Source: Catellatospora methionotrophica (GTDB lineage: Bacteria; Actinomycetota; Actinomycetes; Mycobacteriales; Micromonosporaceae). From it: DNA of 64,000 nt. The position numbers and the translations under genes are program-made. The notes beneath the pieces were generated by a model. That model did no database searches and was not told the origin of the DNA. It saw nothing but the letters and a program-made list of their open reading frames with translations. This document shows, in pieces, positions 1 to 7,370 of the stretch; the first letter of the stretch is position 1, and every line of letters begins with the position of its first letter. The stretch is from NCBI RefSeq assembly GCF_011297335.1, contig NZ_JAAOTJ010000003.1, positions 186,001 through 250,000 of the forward strand, read 5' to 3'.

Positions 1-1
1 G

Positions 2-265
2 CACCGCCGACCGACGCTGTGCGATCAGCTCGACCGGGCGGCGAAGCTGCGCAACGACGCCTCTCATCGCGGGGATCACGAACCCTCGCCGGAGGAGACT
101 GCCGAGATCGTGGAGCTCCTCTACTGGACCACCGAACACCTGCTCATGGCCCCGACGATCCCCGCTAAGGAAGATGATGGCTCCGCGACACCCCCGCTCC
201 GGTCCACCTCAGCAGAACTCCCACGGGGACGCGCTCTTGCGGGAAGCCCGGAAGGCGGCTCGTAA
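2..265 (+). CDS. HEPN-domain protein, C-terminal part only (5' end outside window)
   Basis: An open frame enters from the left edge and ends at TAA 263-265. Around bases 50-67 it encodes RNDASH, an R-x4-H motif typical of HEPN ribonuclease domains. It is followed by a helix with the pattern ETAEIVELLYWTTEHLL, as in HEPN/DUF4145-like folds. HEPN domains with this motif generally cut RNA as dimers. The frame overlaps the next gene by about 90 bases, so the two are translationally linked. The tail after about base 150 is low in structure and may be an extension that simply runs into the next gene. The family assignment rests on the motif and helix pattern of about 50 residues; the missing N-terminus would settle it. 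Confidence 0.6.
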   Translation, partial: HRRPTLCDQLDRAAKLRNDASHRGDHEPSPEETAEIVELLYWTTEHLLMAPTIPAKEDDGSATPPLRSTSAELPRGRALAGSPEGGS

Positions 266-2555
266 CGCGCAGGAGGTCGCCGAACAGAGGGGGATCGAGG
301 CCGAACCCGCCGAGCTTCCCGGCGCGGATCTGCCGCTCACGACAGCTCAGGAATTGTGGACCGAGGCGTCGCGCGTGGCCGGCGTCTACCGCAAGGCCCT
401 GCAGATCTTGGAACGCGACACCGAGAACCTTGCCCGCGAGCGGGACCAGCTGCAGGCCAAGACTGCGAAGCAGGACCAGGACCAGGCCGGCCTGGTGCGG
501 GACACACTCCAGTTGGCGGCGGACCAGGCCCGGCTGGCCGCTGATCGTGCAGATCTCGAGAAGGAGCTGGCGGCACTGCGACGCCGTACGCAGGAAGTCG
601 CGGAATGGGCGGCGCAGACCCGGCAGGAGCGGATCGACAGCGCAGCCGGATTCATGGACCTGGAACGCCAACACCAGCGACGACTCGACGAGCAACGCGC
701 TGCGATGGACCAGGACATCGACCGGAGCAGAGCCGAGGCAGCCTCCGCCGTCGCCCGGGAGCGCTCCGAACTCGACGAGCTGCGCCAGCACAGCGCCACC
801 GAACTCGAGGCCCAGCGCGCAGAGCTGGAGGAGCAGCGCCGCGCCCTGCGGTCGGAGCAGAACATGCTGCGTGCCATGGCCGAGAACGAGCAGGAAAACG
901 AGGACCTAGCCCGCCAGCGGGCAGAACTCGCGGTGGCGGCCGAATTGCAACGCCGTCAGCTGAAGATCGACCAGCTCACCCAGACCCATGAGACGGTGAA
1001 GGCGCACGCCGACCGGCTCCGGGAGGAACTGGACCGACGTGACGCTGCCGCCCGTGACGCCGGGCACGAGGACCCTGCGCGCCTGCAACAGCAGATCCGG
1101 CTACTCAACGAAGACAACTCACGGCTGCGTGCCCAGCTGGCAAACTCGCTGACGATCGAGGATCAGCAGCTGATCACCCGCCTACGCGAGGACAACGCGC
1201 TGCAGGCACAGCAGATTCTGGCGCTGGAGCACCAATGCGCCAGCCTGCGCACCGAGAACAACCTCTACCTGATCTCCACCACCGAGGTGGAGGAGCTTCG
1301 CGAACACCGCGACCACCTGCAGCACTCGATCAGCACACACCGCAAGCTACTCCGGGAAAAGCAGGAGGAGGTCGACTCGCTGCTCGGCGGCGAACGCGCG
1401 CCGCGGCCGTTCCCCGGCCTCGACGAGCTCGACGCGGAACCGGGCCTGCAGACGGCCCGGCCCACCAATCGCAAAACACCGGATCTGGACGACCTCCTCG
1501 ACCACATCCAGCGGCACATTCACGCCGACCGCATCCTCAGCAGCGCCTCGTCGCCGTTGTCCTTCGACAAACGTGATCTGCGTTGCCTGCTCGGCGGCCT
1601 TGCGATGAGCCGGCTGCACCTGCTCCAGGGCATCAGCGGCATCGGCAAGACCAGCCTGCCCAAGGCGTTCGCGCGCGCGATCGGCGCCGATTACGCCGTC
1701 GTCGAGGTGCAGGCCGGGTGGCGAGACCGGGCCGACCTGGTCGGCCACCTCAACGCCTTCGAACGCCGATACTACGAGACCACGTTCACGAAGGCGGTCT
1801 ACCAGGCAGGCTGCGCGGCGCACCAGGACAGGCCATTCTTCGTCATCCTCGACGAGATGAACCTGGCCCACCCCGAGCAGTACTTCGCCGACATCCTTTC
1901 CGGCCTGGAGAACACCGGCGAGCAGATCCGTCTCCAGCTGTCCAACCAGGTGCTGGAGCCCGCCCCACAGCACCTGTCGCGGCAACGCGGAACCCACCTG
2001 CCGGTGCCGCCGAACGTGTGGTTCTTCGGCACGTCGAACCATGACGAGACCACCGTGCAGTTCGCCGACAAGACTTATGACCGGGCCAATGTCATCGAAC
2101 TGCCCGCCACACCTCCAGCAATCTCGCCGCAGCCCCCGCAGCAGCGGCAGCCGGTGTCGCTCAAAGCGCTCGAGGACGCCTTCGACCGCGCCCATCGCCA
2201 GCACGGGGACGCGTCGGAGCAGATCTTGCACTTCCTGCGCGAGCACCTGGTGCAGCCGATGCGCGACGATTTCAAACTCGGCTGGGGACCGCGGCTGGAA
2301 CGCCAGATCCGCGGCTACGCCCCGGTGGTGGTTGCTGCAGGCGGCAGCGTCGGGGAAGCGGCCGACCACGTGATCGCCACCAGGATTGTACGAAAACTAC
2401 GCAACCGGTACGCGCTGAAGGACTCGGACCTGCGAAGCCTGCGCAACATCGTCGAGTCGAGCTGGCCGAGCCTGGTCAGGGGAACGGTCACCGCCGACAA
2501 CGGCCCCACCGCGACCCTGGCTTTGCTCGACGAACTCGCCGAGGCGCGGGGGTGA
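177..2555 (+). CDS. Coiled-coil / McrB-type AAA+ NTPase (CnuB-like)
   Basis: This is probably the motor of a type IV restriction-like system. Residues of about 30-400 are charged, Ala/Glu/Arg/Gln-rich heptads, a very long coiled coil. The AAA+ domain follows, with Walker A GISGIGKTS near residue 490 and an acidic Walker B (VILDEMNLAHPEQYF) near 560. The phrase DEMNLAHPEQYF is a McrB-family hallmark. The canonical McrB GTP-specificity motif MNxxDR is not present; the matching strand reads GTSNHDETT, then DRANVIEL. ATG 177 is preferred over ATG 174 because AAGGA lies about 5 bases upstream. The stop is 3 bases before the McrC-like gene. Fusion of a long coiled coil to McrB AAA+ is the defining trait of CoCoNuT systems (known family); membership here is inferred. 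Confidence 0.8.
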   Translation: MAPRHPRSGPPQQNSHGDALLREARKAARNAQEVAEQRGIEAEPAELPGADLPLTTAQELWTEASRVAGVYRKALQILERDTENLARERDQLQAKTAKQDQDQAGLVRDTLQLAADQARLAADRADLEKELAALRRRTQEVAEWAAQTRQERIDSAAGFMDLERQHQRRLDEQRAAMDQDIDRSRAEAASAVARERSELDELRQHSATELEAQRAELEEQRRALRSEQNMLRAMAENEQENEDLARQRAELAVAAELQRRQLKIDQLTQTHETVKAHADRLREELDRRDAAARDAGHEDPARLQQQIRLLNEDNSRLRAQLANSLTIEDQQLITRLREDNALQAQQILALEHQCASLRTENNLYLISTTEVEELREHRDHLQHSISTHRKLLREKQEEVDSLLGGERAPRPFPGLDELDAEPGLQTARPTNRKTPDLDDLLDHIQRHIHADRILSSASSPLSFDKRDLRCLLGGLAMSRLHLLQGISGIGKTSLPKAFARAIGADYAVVEVQAGWRDRADLVGHLNAFERRYYETTFTKAVYQAGCAAHQDRPFFVILDEMNLAHPEQYFADILSGLENTGEQIRLQLSNQVLEPAPQHLSRQRGTHLPVPPNVWFFGTSNHDETTVQFADKTYDRANVIELPATPPAISPQPPQQRQPVSLKALEDAFDRAHRQHGDASEQILHFLREHLVQPMRDDFKLGWGPRLERQIRGYAPVVVAAGGSVGEAADHVIATRIVRKLRNRYALKDSDLRSLRNIVESSWPSLVRGTVTADNGPTATLALLDELAEARG

Positions 2556-2558
2556 GCC

Positions 2559-4727
2559 ATGAGCGATCCATTCTGGGATCGGGTGACCGCCCGCCACCTT
2601 CGGAAGCTGCCTGACCAGCCGCTGCTCGGGCGCTACCGGCTCGGCTCGGCGGGCCTCGCCAACGGGCAACCGGCTGCCGCATACGCGGCCGTCGTTCCCG
2701 GTACTTCCACCCGGTGGTCGGCGGAAGTCGCAGGGGTGAGCGCCAGTGGACGGTTCGCCCACGACGGGCAACCCGACCCGGCGCTGGCCGGCCGGGCCGC
2801 CGCGATCGCCGCTGCGTTGGCAGAAGCCGTGCTCCGCACGGATGACCCGGAGAATACGACGGAATACGAGCGCTGGATCGCGGTTCCGCCACTGGCCGGC
2901 GATGTGCTGGCGCAGCTGCGTGGCGTCGCCCCCGACGACCCCGTTCCGTTGTTCGAGCGGGAGTTCGACGCTGCCTTTCCGCAGTTGGCGGCGGTATGTC
3001 AGCAGCCAGTGGCCCGGCTACGCCGGGAGGTCGAACTGACGGCGCTGTCGCGCGCTCGCCGGTTCGCACCAGGGGCTGCCGACTACCTCGCCGGCCACAC
3101 CGAGGACTGGCAGCAGCGAACGATGGGCGGGGTGCATCCTCGACGGGTGCAGTCCCTGCGCAACGACGAGGACCTGGACCTCTACGAGAACCGCGCGACG
3201 CTGCGCCTCCTGGCTCATCTCGCAGCCTTTTTCGAGTGGCGCCGCCGACGCCTGGAGGCGGCCGTAGATGTCCTTGACGACCTGGACCGGTTCGCCGCAC
3301 AACTGGGCACGGGACGGTGGCGCACCTCGCACCGCATGTCCCAGCTGCTGGCCGAGTTCCATGATCACGCCGATCTGCTCGCCGGCATCGACGACCTGCT
3401 GGAGCAGACGCGCCAGCGCCAAGCACGACTACTCGGCCTGCACGCATCGCGGCTGTGCCGGAACCGCCAGGTGAGCCGGTCCGCCGTGATCGGCACCGGG
3501 CTACGCCCCACCAACCTGTTCCTGTTCCACGAGGACTACCGTCGCATCCACGGACTGTGGAAGGCATGGGCTCTGGTCGACGCATCCACGGGACTCGACT
3601 CAGCCGTCTCGCCCATGGCGTTCTGCGACGCATACGACCAGTTCGTGGCCCTGATCACCGCACGTGCGCTGGAATCTCTCGACTTCCGGGCGCTGACGAC
3701 CCTGCAGCCGTTGCCGGGGGGCCCGAAAGTCGCCTACACGAACCGCGCCGACGATCAGCTCACCCTGAGCGTCAGGGCGGACGGAACGCTCGAACTCTGC
3801 CGCGACCAGCGAATCCTGCTCACCGTGGTGCCGGTGCCGCACCAGCTCGCGGCACCGGTGACCAGCCGACAACTCGACGCGCTGCTCGACGACCTCCGCA
3901 CGCCGGCTCCGGCTGGGCACCACCGGGTCCTGATCTACCCGAGCACGAGAGTCGAACGTCAATCGCTGCCGCGCCAAGTGCGGGCCCGCCTCGAAAGTCC
4001 CGGTCACGATCTAGCCGAGGGCACCGGTGTCGGGCTGATCCCCGCCGCCCCGACAGAACTCGACAGCGTGGAACGGGTCGCCAGAGCGTTGCAGTGGGCC
4101 CGCACCGCCCCGGACGCGACGGCCTACCCGCCGGTCGTGTCGGCGCAGGCAACTCTCATCGACGTAGCCGCCGACACTGACTGGACGAGCCGCAACGCTG
4201 CCGACACGCTGGCTGTGCTCCGGCATCCGAGTCAAGCCCAGTGGCAGCATCTGCAAGAACAGGTCAGCTCCTGGCGGGACCAGCGGCTGCCGGACGCGAA
4301 GCGCCGCGAGCGGCAAGTCGTGGCAGAACGCTTCAACAGCCAGCTCGACGCGGCCTTGGCGATCGTGCGCAGACTCGCCACCTGCCCGGTCTGCGGTGAA
4401 CCCGTCGGCTCCAGTCGGGACTTCCAGCCCCGCGAAGGAACCTTCACTGCGGAGTGCCGGCAGTGCCACACGAGATGGGGCACCCAGTCGTGCGGCAACT
4501 GCGCCCGCACCTACCCCGTCATCTTCCGCCGCCAGAACACCGGCACGCAGCCACTCGGCACCGCAGACGTACTCGGCATCGACGTCCTCGCCACCAACTG
4601 CCATGCCTCTGCGACCCACGCCACCGTCTGCCCGCACTGCGGCACCTGTGGTCTGTCTGACACGAGGCCGTCCTGCTGGCGCTGCCACCCCACCGCACTT
4701 CCGACAGGAGACTCCCATGGCAGATGA
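2559..4727 (+). CDS. McrC/DUF2357-like protein with C-terminal zinc-binding Cys clusters (CnuC-like)
   Basis: This 722-residue protein begins 3 bases after the McrB-like gene, the usual McrB-McrC order. Residues of about 125-240 resemble DUF2357/McrC-like proteins: PLFEREFDAAF, then DLDLYENRATLRLLAHL, the conserved ENR segment that precedes the nuclease domain. McrC homologues bind the McrB hexamer and carry a PD-(D/E)xK nuclease. I cannot find a clear D...ExK set here; the segment near residues 390-460 has strands ending in RVLIYPST but no obvious catalytic Lys. The last 120 residues contain CPVC (about 609), CRQC, CGNC, CPHC and CWRC pairs, probably two or more zinc ribbons. The gene overlaps the CARF gene by 11 bases. 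Either a diverged nuclease or a scaffold is possible. Confidence 0.7.
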   Translation: MSDPFWDRVTARHLRKLPDQPLLGRYRLGSAGLANGQPAAAYAAVVPGTSTRWSAEVAGVSASGRFAHDGQPDPALAGRAAAIAAALAEAVLRTDDPENTTEYERWIAVPPLAGDVLAQLRGVAPDDPVPLFEREFDAAFPQLAAVCQQPVARLRREVELTALSRARRFAPGAADYLAGHTEDWQQRTMGGVHPRRVQSLRNDEDLDLYENRATLRLLAHLAAFFEWRRRRLEAAVDVLDDLDRFAAQLGTGRWRTSHRMSQLLAEFHDHADLLAGIDDLLEQTRQRQARLLGLHASRLCRNRQVSRSAVIGTGLRPTNLFLFHEDYRRIHGLWKAWALVDASTGLDSAVSPMAFCDAYDQFVALITARALESLDFRALTTLQPLPGGPKVAYTNRADDQLTLSVRADGTLELCRDQRILLTVVPVPHQLAAPVTSRQLDALLDDLRTPAPAGHHRVLIYPSTRVERQSLPRQVRARLESPGHDLAEGTGVGLIPAAPTELDSVERVARALQWARTAPDATAYPPVVSAQATLIDVAADTDWTSRNAADTLAVLRHPSQAQWQHLQEQVSSWRDQRLPDAKRRERQVVAERFNSQLDAALAIVRRLATCPVCGEPVGSSRDFQPREGTFTAECRQCHTRWGTQSCGNCARTYPVIFRRQNTGTQPLGTADVLGIDVLATNCHASATHATVCPHCGTCGLSDTRPSCWRCHPTALPTGDSHGR

Positions 4728-6156
4728 CAACGCCCTAAAGCTGCGCCAGATCCTGCGCGGCCACGACACCTGGGGCGAGGGAACAGCCTCCGAGCAGGCG
4801 ACCGCTTTCTTCCTCGACACGATGCTCGACGAGACAGTCGCCAGGGTACGCAAGCAGAACCCCGCTCTGAAACGGCCCGTGGACCTGCTGATCAGCATGA
4901 GCGGTTTCTCACCGCTGACGACCATCCTGGCCTACGAACTCATCCGGCCTACCCGGCTCCTGGTCATCTACTCCGAACAGGCCGGCACGAGCGTCGACGT
5001 CATCGCTCAACGTGTCCTGCGGCCCGGCCGACTCCGGCAGCTCGACTTCTCCCACCGCTCGGTCGACCCCACCGACCCGCAGGGCATCTACCGCGAGGTC
5101 AAGGCCGAGCTCGACCGGGCGACCACCAACGGCACCCTATCCGCCATGATCGAGATCACCGGCGGCAAGAAGGTCATGAGCGCCGCCGCCGCGCTCGCGG
5201 CATGGCAGCTCAACCTCAGCCTGTGCTACCTCGACGGCGACTATGACACGGAGTTCGGCCGCGTCGTGCCCGGCGACGAACGGCCGCTGCTGCTGGACAA
5301 TCCGACCGCGCTGTTCGGTGAGCAGGAGATGGCCGCCGCGCTGGAGACATTCCGCAGCGGCGGCTTCAGCAGTGCCTACGACCGCTACCACGAGCTATGC
5401 GAGCAGGTCGCCAACCCAGCCCGGGCCCGGTTCATGCGTGCGCTCAGCGCGCTCTACCGCGCATGGTGCGACCTCGACCTCGCAAACCTGGCCTCGTGCA
5501 TCAGGGCGGTGGAAACCACCAAGGCAGCAGCCGCACAGGAAATCAGCCAGAAGACCAGCAGCGTGATCGGCGAACAGCTCCACTTCCTCAAGACCCTCAC
5601 CGGTGCCCGTCCGGATCCCGCCTCGATGCTCGTCAGCTTCCTCGTGCTGGGTCGGCACTATGAAAGGCTCGGCCGGCACGACTTCGCGGCCCTGTTGTTC
5701 TACCGCACCATCGAAGGCTGCCTGTCCCGCCGGCTGGAACTGAAATACCCGGGCTTCAGCTGCAAAGCACCTGACTGGAAGCTGATCGGCGATCCCGACG
5801 ACGTGCGTGCGGTATACCTCCAGGCCGTCATGGACACGAACGGCCGCGACACCGACACACTCCCACCGGACATCTCCATGATGCAGGCGGTCACCCTGCT
5901 CTACGCACTACGGGACAGTCTCAGCGTGAAAGCGCAGCTGAACACGCCCGACGGGGTCAGCAACCTGCGTTCCCTAGCCGAGACACGAAACAGCTCCGTG
6001 TTGGCACACGGGTACAAGACCGTCGCGCCGAAAGACTCCCAGAAGTTGCGGGAACGAGCAGAACACCTGCTAACGGTTTTCTGGCGGTTACACGGCACCG
6101 GCGGGGACGTACGGCGGCTATGGGAGCAGCTGCGCTTTGTCGACATGGATCGTTGA
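4717..6156 (+). CDS. CARF-HEPN ribonuclease (Csm6/Cas02710-like)
   Basis: Predicted cyclic-nucleotide-activated RNase of 479 residues. The N-terminal Rossmann-like CARF domain shows a first strand and loop LLISMSGFSP (about 50) and the ligand-loop motif EITGGKKVMSAAAALAA (about 145-162), the equivalent of the TGGTK segment of Csm6/TIGR02710 proteins. A helical C-terminal half ends in a HEPN active site RNSSVLAHG, R424-x6-H431. CARF domains bind cyclic oligonucleotides and HEPN cuts RNA (known). Here it sits in an operon with McrBC-like genes and no CRISPR locus, as reported for CoCoNuT superoperons. The start is ATG 4717 with AGGAG 6 bases upstream, overlapping the previous gene by 11 bases and thus probably translationally coupled. 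Confidence 0.85.
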   Translation: MADDNALKLRQILRGHDTWGEGTASEQATAFFLDTMLDETVARVRKQNPALKRPVDLLISMSGFSPLTTILAYELIRPTRLLVIYSEQAGTSVDVIAQRVLRPGRLRQLDFSHRSVDPTDPQGIYREVKAELDRATTNGTLSAMIEITGGKKVMSAAAALAAWQLNLSLCYLDGDYDTEFGRVVPGDERPLLLDNPTALFGEQEMAAALETFRSGGFSSAYDRYHELCEQVANPARARFMRALSALYRAWCDLDLANLASCIRAVETTKAAAAQEISQKTSSVIGEQLHFLKTLTGARPDPASMLVSFLVLGRHYERLGRHDFAALLFYRTIEGCLSRRLELKYPGFSCKAPDWKLIGDPDDVRAVYLQAVMDTNGRDTDTLPPDISMMQAVTLLYALRDSLSVKAQLNTPDGVSNLRSLAETRNSSVLAHGYKTVAPKDSQKLRERAEHLLTVFWRLHGTGGDVRRLWEQLRFVDMDR

Positions 6157-7283: not shown

Positions 7284-7370
7284 TGGTGTCCGAGGGGGGA
7301 CTTGAACCCCCACGCCCTATACGGGCACTAGCACCTCAAGCTAGCGCGTCTGCCATTCCGCCACCCGGAC
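7284..7370 (-). tRNA. tRNA-Leu (anticodon GAG)
   Basis: The reverse strand folds as a class II tRNA. The acceptor GTCCGGG pairs with CTCGGAC, then A and an encoded CCA. The anticodon stem CTAGC/GCTAG encloses TTGAGGT, giving anticodon GAG. A long variable arm is followed by GGGGGTTCAAGTCCCCC as the T arm. It decodes CUC/CUU. The 3' end points to the broken DUF429 gene and the defence block, the side on which tRNA-targeted islands insert. Confidence 0.97.

Follow-up and report, generated by a model that had tools for sequence, protein, structure and literature searches.

The window analysed here is the whole 64,000-nucleotide stretch C23:186001-250000 (C23 denotes contig coordinates) of the 8.39-Mb Catellatospora methionotrophica genome (G000). 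Four plus-strand genes lie at its left edge, and their coordinates and spacing bear out a preliminary description of them as tightly spaced or overlapping. When the sequence was extended leftward, four more genes that this description had missed came into view, encoding a VWA protein, a PP2C protein, a kinase and the helicase CnuH. Left flank and window together hold an eight-gene operon on a single strand, in the order VWA, PP2C, kinase, CnuH, CnuE, CnuB, CnuC and CARF-HEPN. The features are as follows.

C23:178590-179282, plus strand: VWA gene (Pfam E-value 5e-10, above cut-off).
C23:179278-180054, plus strand: PP2C gene (PP2C_2, E 7.8e-34, above cut-off).
C23:180011-181420, plus strand: kinase gene (Pkinase, E 3.9e-9, above cut-off).
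C23:181342-184665, plus strand: gene for the UPF1-like helicase CnuH (AAA_11; NAM7/UPF1 solved relatives).
Window 1-265, plus strand: 3′ end of the CnuE gene, 540 aa, with a HEPN-type motif; the whole gene is C23:184643-186265 (= L005:4643-6265).
Window 174-2555 (C23:186174-188555), plus strand: CnuB gene, 793 aa, coiled coil and McrB-like AAA+ domain.
Window 2559-4727 (C23:188559-190727), plus strand: CnuC gene, 722 aa, DUF2357-like McrC homologue with a zinc ribbon.
Window 4717-6156 (C23:190717-192156), plus strand: CARF-HEPN gene, 479 aa, Csm6/TIGR02710 family.
Window 7284-7298 (C23:193284), no strand assigned: 15-bp direct repeat at the 3′ end of tRNA-Leu(gag), located by repeat match; the other copy is at C23:153849.
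Window 7284-7370, minus strand: tRNA-Leu(gag), whose 3′ end is the probable right boundary of a defence island.

The CnuE and CnuB genes overlap by 92 nt, CnuB and CnuC are separated by 3 nt, and CnuC and CARF-HEPN overlap by 11 nt. Throughout the operon adjacent genes either overlap or stand 3 nt apart, with uncertain starts at the long overlaps. Six of the eight proteins have Pfam matches above cut-off; those of CnuE and CnuC are below cut-off only.

The VWA, PP2C and kinase genes make up a TerY-P triad upstream of CnuH, a usual, non-core feature of Type II CoCoNuT, and C-x2-C pairs can be seen in the translation after the kinase domain. The closest solved relatives of CnuH in a sequence search of solved structures are NAM7/UPF1. 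Positions 2-251 of AAA_11 are stretched across CnuH residues 449-828, with Walker A at 471 and Walker B at 797, and this spread indicates a large insertion after Walker A, as expected of a Type II CnuH. In a profile comparison with the Polaromonas CnuH the aligned stretch was 105-1101, which is compatible with the SmpB-like OB fold and RelE-like domain that a Type II CnuH would have at its N-terminus. CnuE has an N-terminal wHTH region, matched below cut-off by PF24409, and a single HEPN-type motif (R-N-x3-H), RNDASH, at residue 470 toward the C-terminus. The HEPN motif that had been noted in this first gene is present, with R...H in 16/17 aligned rows (R-x4-H in 11 and R-x5-H in 5; the Deinococcus row has no Arg in the alignment). 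A Type II CnuE would have an elongated wHTH and one HEPN with R-x4-H; the place of our gene and its profile similarity to the Polaromonas counterpart (probability 99.0) agree with this. HEPN profiles gave no match to CnuE, making the HEPN call a motif-based one, and a sequence comparison with solved structures yielded nothing useful. Through this motif CnuE would be expected to cut RNA.

CnuB was described as a Walker-type AAA+ protein with a very long coiled coil, and both parts were recovered. The AAA+ domain matches PF07728 at 27.2 bits (cut-off 22), with Walker A at 486, Walker B at 558 and an NxD signature, N-H-D-E, at 622-625; NxD is present in 19/19 aligned CnuB rows. Judged from composition and periodicity only, the N-terminus is a coiled coil: its longest Pro/Gly-free run is 137 residues, a length reached in 0/2000 shuffles (shuffle mean 51), and the heptad power z is 3.1 for residues 55-410, compared with 1.7 for the AAA+ part of CnuB and 0.4 for CnuC. 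Among solved structures the sequence search for CnuB returned no McrB and one Lon-type match (E 0.025). For CnuC, the earlier claim of a zinc-ribbon partner similar to McrC/DUF2357 stood as to the gene, its position and its twelve cysteines, while the DUF2357 match proved to be sub-threshold only (20.9 bits against a cut-off of 23.3). The match is below cut-off in 4/4 homologues as well, and 3/4 plasmid counterparts carry a DUF2357 annotation. The twelve Cys lie within residues 609-709, forming the zinc ribbon, and 12 Cys are kept in at least 80% of 19 aligned rows. No Lys is kept in at least 80% of these 19 rows and Glu505 is the only Asp/Glu so kept within 300-600; CnuC thus has no conserved PD-(D/E)xK site. 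Comparison of CnuC with solved structures by sequence gave nothing useful, also for the Ig-like beta sandwich that a Type II CnuC would carry at its N-terminus.

Judged by gene set and motifs, the locus looks like a complete Type II CoCoNuT. The proposed CoCoNuT membership is thereby supported, and gene order and motifs narrow it to Type II. The zinc-ribbon tail and motif changes had also been taken as possible signs of a distinct subtype. The passages of PMC11090510 used here give a zinc ribbon and the loss of nuclease residues for Type II CnuC, and they publish both NxD and the CnuC zinc ribbon as features of Types I-A and II; the suggestion of a distinct subtype is therefore unsupported, and we reject a new subtype based on the zinc ribbon. 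The unusual part of the operon is instead its 3′-terminal CARF-HEPN gene.

The reading of this last gene as a CARF sensor joined to a HEPN domain was confirmed by profiles and by both motifs. Scanned as a query with one extra N-terminal residue, the protein matches TIGR02710 at 104.5 bits (cut-off 83.9), the PADLOC model CARF1--CARF_HEPN at 615 bits and the Csm6 HEPN family PF09670 at E 3.2e-10. It carries TGGKK in the CARF domain and RNSSVLAH (R-x6-H) in the HEPN domain, and its closest solved relatives by sequence search are the Csm6 proteins 5fsh and 8jbb. Csm6-like proteins are well-studied ligand-activated RNases, and TGGxK in a CARF domain presumably points to a cyclic oligonucleotide ligand. 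A search of the protein database gave 230 homologues, and among the 120 listed, our protein included, RNxSxLAHG and TGGxK are each found in 119. Nine of the listed homologues (P0009-P0017) are full-length at 65-70% identity, with a clear step down to the remaining full-length proteins, which reach 54% at most; the fragment P0127 has 63% identity over 62%. All 11 plasmid records of CARF-HEPN come from Thermus or Meiothermus (~25% identity), and our search found none in phages.

We asked how often this arrangement occurs elsewhere. Searching 397 genomes of the order with CnuB gave matches in 106, of which the five strong ones were used (our own, G283, G389, G299 and G105); the other 101, partial matches at E 8e-21 or weaker, were excluded from the CoCoNuT counts, with L020-L024 compared. 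Among 354 genomes of the family, the CnuC query found 16 matches, our own included; a partial one in G576 and one at E 8e-4 in G587 were set aside. The CnuC matches kept, together with G389 from the order search, make up a set of 15 CoCoNuT loci, our own included; the G283 CnuB has one TAG within the matched stretch, and its open piece was aligned. CnuB is followed by CnuC in 14/14 other loci, a recurrence that shows the arrangement is not due to chance, and CnuE stands ahead in 12/14, the exceptions being G283 (no match) and G451 (contig starts within CnuB). The same seven genes occur in the same order on plasmids of Polaromonas, Rhodoferax, Deinococcus and Pseudanabaena by annotation, or by position where hypothetical; these four loci were classed by order and annotation in this analysis, and none comes from the list of PMC11090510. 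Alignment of our own plus G593 profiles with Polaromonas plus Rhodoferax profiles (hhalign) gave probabilities of 100 for CnuH, 100 for CnuB (AAA+ part), 99.7 for CnuC (to about residue 650) and 99.0 for CnuE.

The CARF-HEPN gene lies behind cnuC in 2/15 CoCoNuT loci, our own and that of G593, which belongs to a second genus. Genome-wide searches found no CARF-HEPN in the other 13 CoCoNuT genomes; the G417 contig stops 700 bases past cnuC, so that this genome counts through the genome-wide search only. We therefore reject a strict co-occurrence of CARF-HEPN with CoCoNuT. Behind cnuC, same-strand frames of 275 residues in G299 and 310 residues in G633 lie opposite much longer frames and are apparent shadows, and the other 11/15 loci have no frame of at least 150 residues there. 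The two CARF-bearing operons keep the same gene order, with identities of 65% for CARF, 56% for CnuH, 54% for the kinase, 48% for CnuB, 48% for CnuC and 45% for CnuE, and a 2-nt gap between cnuC and carf in G593. Upstream in G593 are PP2C- and VWA-like frames (translations judged by eye). Our own and the G593 proteins form a single clade with 100/100 support in the CnuB, CnuH and CnuC trees, the tree of the AAA+ protein comprising CnuB proteins only. Directly upstream of the VWA-like frame in G593, transposase-like and tyrosine-recombinase-like frames were noted by eye (L059:2781-4311).

Relatives of the CARF-HEPN protein were also sought independently of CoCoNuT. Matches numbered three in 397 genomes of the order (own included), two in 394 genomes of the class (own and a weak one, G983) and five in 18 chosen genomes (own included), and a species-level genome collection added five loci, L006-L010. 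Across these searches, ten genomes have a relative that is near full-length and can be seen with some of its context. In the eight loci other than the two CoCoNuTs, CARF-HEPN adjoins a UPF1/MkoA-like helicase (8/8) and is accompanied by a protein X and a PLD nuclease in 7/8, the eighth being L007, where the contig ends within the helicase. CARF-HEPN is co-directional in 7/8 and tail to tail in G390. Mokosh is the MkoA/MkoB system, and PADLOC called MkoA in 2/2 helicases scanned, the C-terminal part of MkoB in 3/3 PLD proteins and the N-terminal part of MkoB in 1/3 X proteins. Profile comparison finds protein X similar to the wHTH part of CnuE (probability 73, E 3e-5, 104 columns; three controls below 1). 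We observed this actinomycete four-gene set (CARF-HEPN, MkoA-like helicase, protein X and PLD) at L006, L008, L009, L010, L011/L012, L013/L014 and L053, and it looks like a relative of Mokosh that would have its own CARF-gated RNase. With eight Mokosh-like and two CoCoNuT loci, CARF-HEPN partners a UPF1-like helicase operon in all ten seen.

For the CARF tree we took 58 rows, combining part of the 120 homologues listed with proteins of the loci and two outgroup sequences. Eleven near proteins form one side of a branch that has just 73% support. When the tree is rooted on the very distant Thermus/Meiothermus proteins, G390, G004, our own protein, P0012 and P0016 are unresolved at the root, so that an older Mokosh-like setting for CARF-HEPN is possible. 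Our literature search found no description that places a CARF-HEPN within a Type II CoCoNuT or next to a Mokosh-like operon, and the supplementary lists of PMC11090510 may hold single loci.

Type II CoCoNuTs often carry a 5′ RtcR, a CARF-ATPase-HTH protein that depends on sigma-54, as stated in the passages of PMC11090510 used here. CARFs akin to RtcR are named there for Types II and III-A, and CARF nucleases akin to Can1/Can2 for Type III-A, with no CARF-HEPN in a Type II operon; for RtcR-type CARFs, RNA ends with 2′,3′-cyclic phosphate are proposed. In the Polaromonas and Rhodoferax plasmid loci the 5′ end carries a gene for a sigma-54 regulator, and the Polaromonas plasmid gives a match to the RtcR model. 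No RtcR was detected in any of the 15 CoCoNuT genomes tested within the order, ours included, and sigma-54 was undetected in 14 of them, ours among these. The closest larger gene 5′ of our operon, where RtcR often sits, encodes an EcsC protein. Sigma-54 is unexpected in this group; a match to its DNA-binding domain in G417 (C21:153688-154098, E 1e-27) may be contamination.

The direct repeats, about 39.4 kb apart, bound a stretch of lower GC with the operon close to its right end. GC content in 2-kb steps is 0.59-0.73 inside the repeat-bounded stretch and 0.69-0.74 outside, and the stretch is probably a mobile defence island; no integrase was recognised among the subset of ORFs scanned. Further genes lie within this stretch. 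On the minus strand, opposite to the CoCoNuT, L060:14158-19883 and L004:3-7190 encode the type I restriction proteins HsdR, HsdM and HsdS and another N6 methylase; an AIPR/AbiU-like protein, a second kinase that resembles PD-T4-6/mad6 and, from a match below cut-off, a PLD-domain protein are encoded there as well. On the plus strand, L060:12872-14143 has a GmrSD C-terminal domain and a sub-threshold match to the O6-methylguanine methyltransferase DNA-binding domain, and the EcsC-family gene upstream of VWA, L004:11535-12350, matches the PADLOC candidate PDC-S29 at 213 bits.

Taken together, we favour the reading that a Type II CoCoNuT has here gained a Csm6-like CARF-HEPN ribonuclease as its last gene, such that RNA sensing by the core would lead to a ligand and the ligand to a second RNase, and we put its probability at about 0.72. 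Visible directly in the sequences are the gene set and order, the motifs, the lack of conserved McrC catalytic residues, the recurrence in a second genus and the relatives beside another UPF1-like helicase operon. The new element is the rare Csm6-like effector as last gene of a Type II CoCoNuT in two genera. CoCoNuTs are predicted to target RNA, and the CARF link given for Type II in the passages of PMC11090510 used here is to transcriptional regulators. In the proposed mechanism, the helicase/GTPase core would recognise phage-altered RNA or translation, and CnuE would cleave RNA with its HEPN motif. A small ligand would then bind the CARF domain and switch on the second HEPN RNase, and the infected cell would halt growth or die; this ligand could be a cyclic oligonucleotide or else RNA that ends in a 2′,3′-cyclic phosphate. 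In a host without sigma-54, direct enzyme activation could take the place of the transcriptional role proposed for RtcR. CARF-HEPN is predicted most likely to be a ligand-gated second RNase for abortive defence, and the ligand may be the product of an unrecognised cyclase, a signal made by CoCoNuT or 2′,3′-cyclic phosphate RNA ends. Against this reading, 13/15 CoCoNuT genomes have no CARF-HEPN, and CoCoNuTs can therefore generally do without it; these 13 genomes have no RtcR either, so that missing sigma-54 alone does not demand the gene. The Cas10-palm and SMODS searches detected no ligand maker in our genome, and just two CARF-HEPN-bearing CoCoNuT operons were seen with context.

The strongest alternative, which we judge unlikely, makes CARF-HEPN a passenger: a defence gene working independently, which came to lie behind cnuC and has only the transcript in common with it. 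Absence from 13/15 CoCoNuT genomes fits a passenger, as do the position at the end of a probable mobile island, the other setting of 8/10 CARF-HEPN relatives with context and the case of G576, where CARF-HEPN is in a Mokosh-like setting on a different contig from the partial CnuC match. However, in both CARF-HEPN-bearing CoCoNuT operons the gene is tightly joined to cnuC, by the 11-nt overlap here and the 2-nt gap in G593, and the gene order has held despite divergence of the core to 45-56% identity. Moreover, the eight other loci also have a UPF1-like helicase, and 7/8 have the protein that resembles the CnuE wHTH region at probability 73.

Far less probable is a stranded Csm6 that works for a type III CRISPR-Cas or CBASS system located elsewhere in the cell, as might be suggested by the closest solved relatives, by the CRISPR-associated family name given to TIGR02710 at NCBI and by a Cas10-palm match in the genome of the Sinosporangium relative. 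Nevertheless, no Cas10 palm was detected in 9/10 CARF-HEPN genomes, G000 included, in a search whose control matched 5/14 genomes, and this disfavours a CRISPR-associated Csm6; the Sinosporangium match and another in G523, a CoCoNuT genome without CARF-HEPN, blur the separation. A CBASS partner was rejected, as SMODS was found in 0/5 genomes tested, ours among them, with a control that matched 3/14 genomes; the CD-NTase model PF21654 matched nothing, controls included, and is hence uninformative. Finally, an ordinary McrBC, a GTP-driven restriction enzyme for modified DNA, has in its favour the McrB-like AAA+ domain and weak DUF2357 similarity, but is highly improbable given NxD rather than NxxD, a coiled coil at the N-terminal place, a CnuC without conserved catalytic residues, and HEPN motifs and a UPF1-like helicase within the operon.

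A bolder extension of the favoured Type II CoCoNuT reading, which we offer tentatively and hold to be rather doubtful, is that the operon could be a self-contained second-messenger circuit without a Cas10 or CBASS cyclase, in which the CoCoNuT core or RNA ends made by CnuE would generate the ligand for the last-gene RNase. CARF-HEPN would then be an exchangeable death module of actinomycete UPF1-like helicase-wHTH systems, both CoCoNuT and Mokosh-like, replacing sigma-54-dependent RtcR control. The operon closes with a Csm6-like RNase in a genome with no detected Cas10 or SMODS, two known kinds of ligand maker, and a reporter RNase could therefore be used to ask which signal a CoCoNuT produces. 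A single CARF-HEPN family is also common to two kinds of helicase-based operon.

Compared with Type II CoCoNuT as described in the passages of Bell et al. 2024 (PMC11090510) used here, our locus shares the overlapping genes and the order from TerY-P through CnuH, CnuE and CnuB to CnuC, as well as the single HEPN-type motif of CnuE, the coiled coil and NxD of CnuB and a CnuC with a zinc ribbon and no nuclease residues. It differs in that the genome is without RtcR and that a Csm6-like CARF-HEPN is the last gene. Type III-A CoCoNuT has an Hsp70-like domain in CnuC, has lost the zinc ribbon and has two HEPN in CnuE, whereas our CnuC keeps the zinc ribbon with no Hsp70 match and our CnuE has one RN-x3-H. 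With the Csm6/TIGR02710 ribonucleases the CARF-HEPN protein shares the domain order, the TGGxK CARF motif and a C-terminal R-x4-6-H HEPN motif; in contrast, 9/10 genomes of its clade have no detected Cas10 palm, and its neighbours are helicase operons. The likeness to Mokosh, as defined by the PADLOC models, is that eight CARF-HEPN relatives with context adjoin an MkoA-like SF1 helicase, whereas our operon has no PLD gene, uses CnuH as its helicase and encodes a wHTH protein with a HEPN motif at the end.
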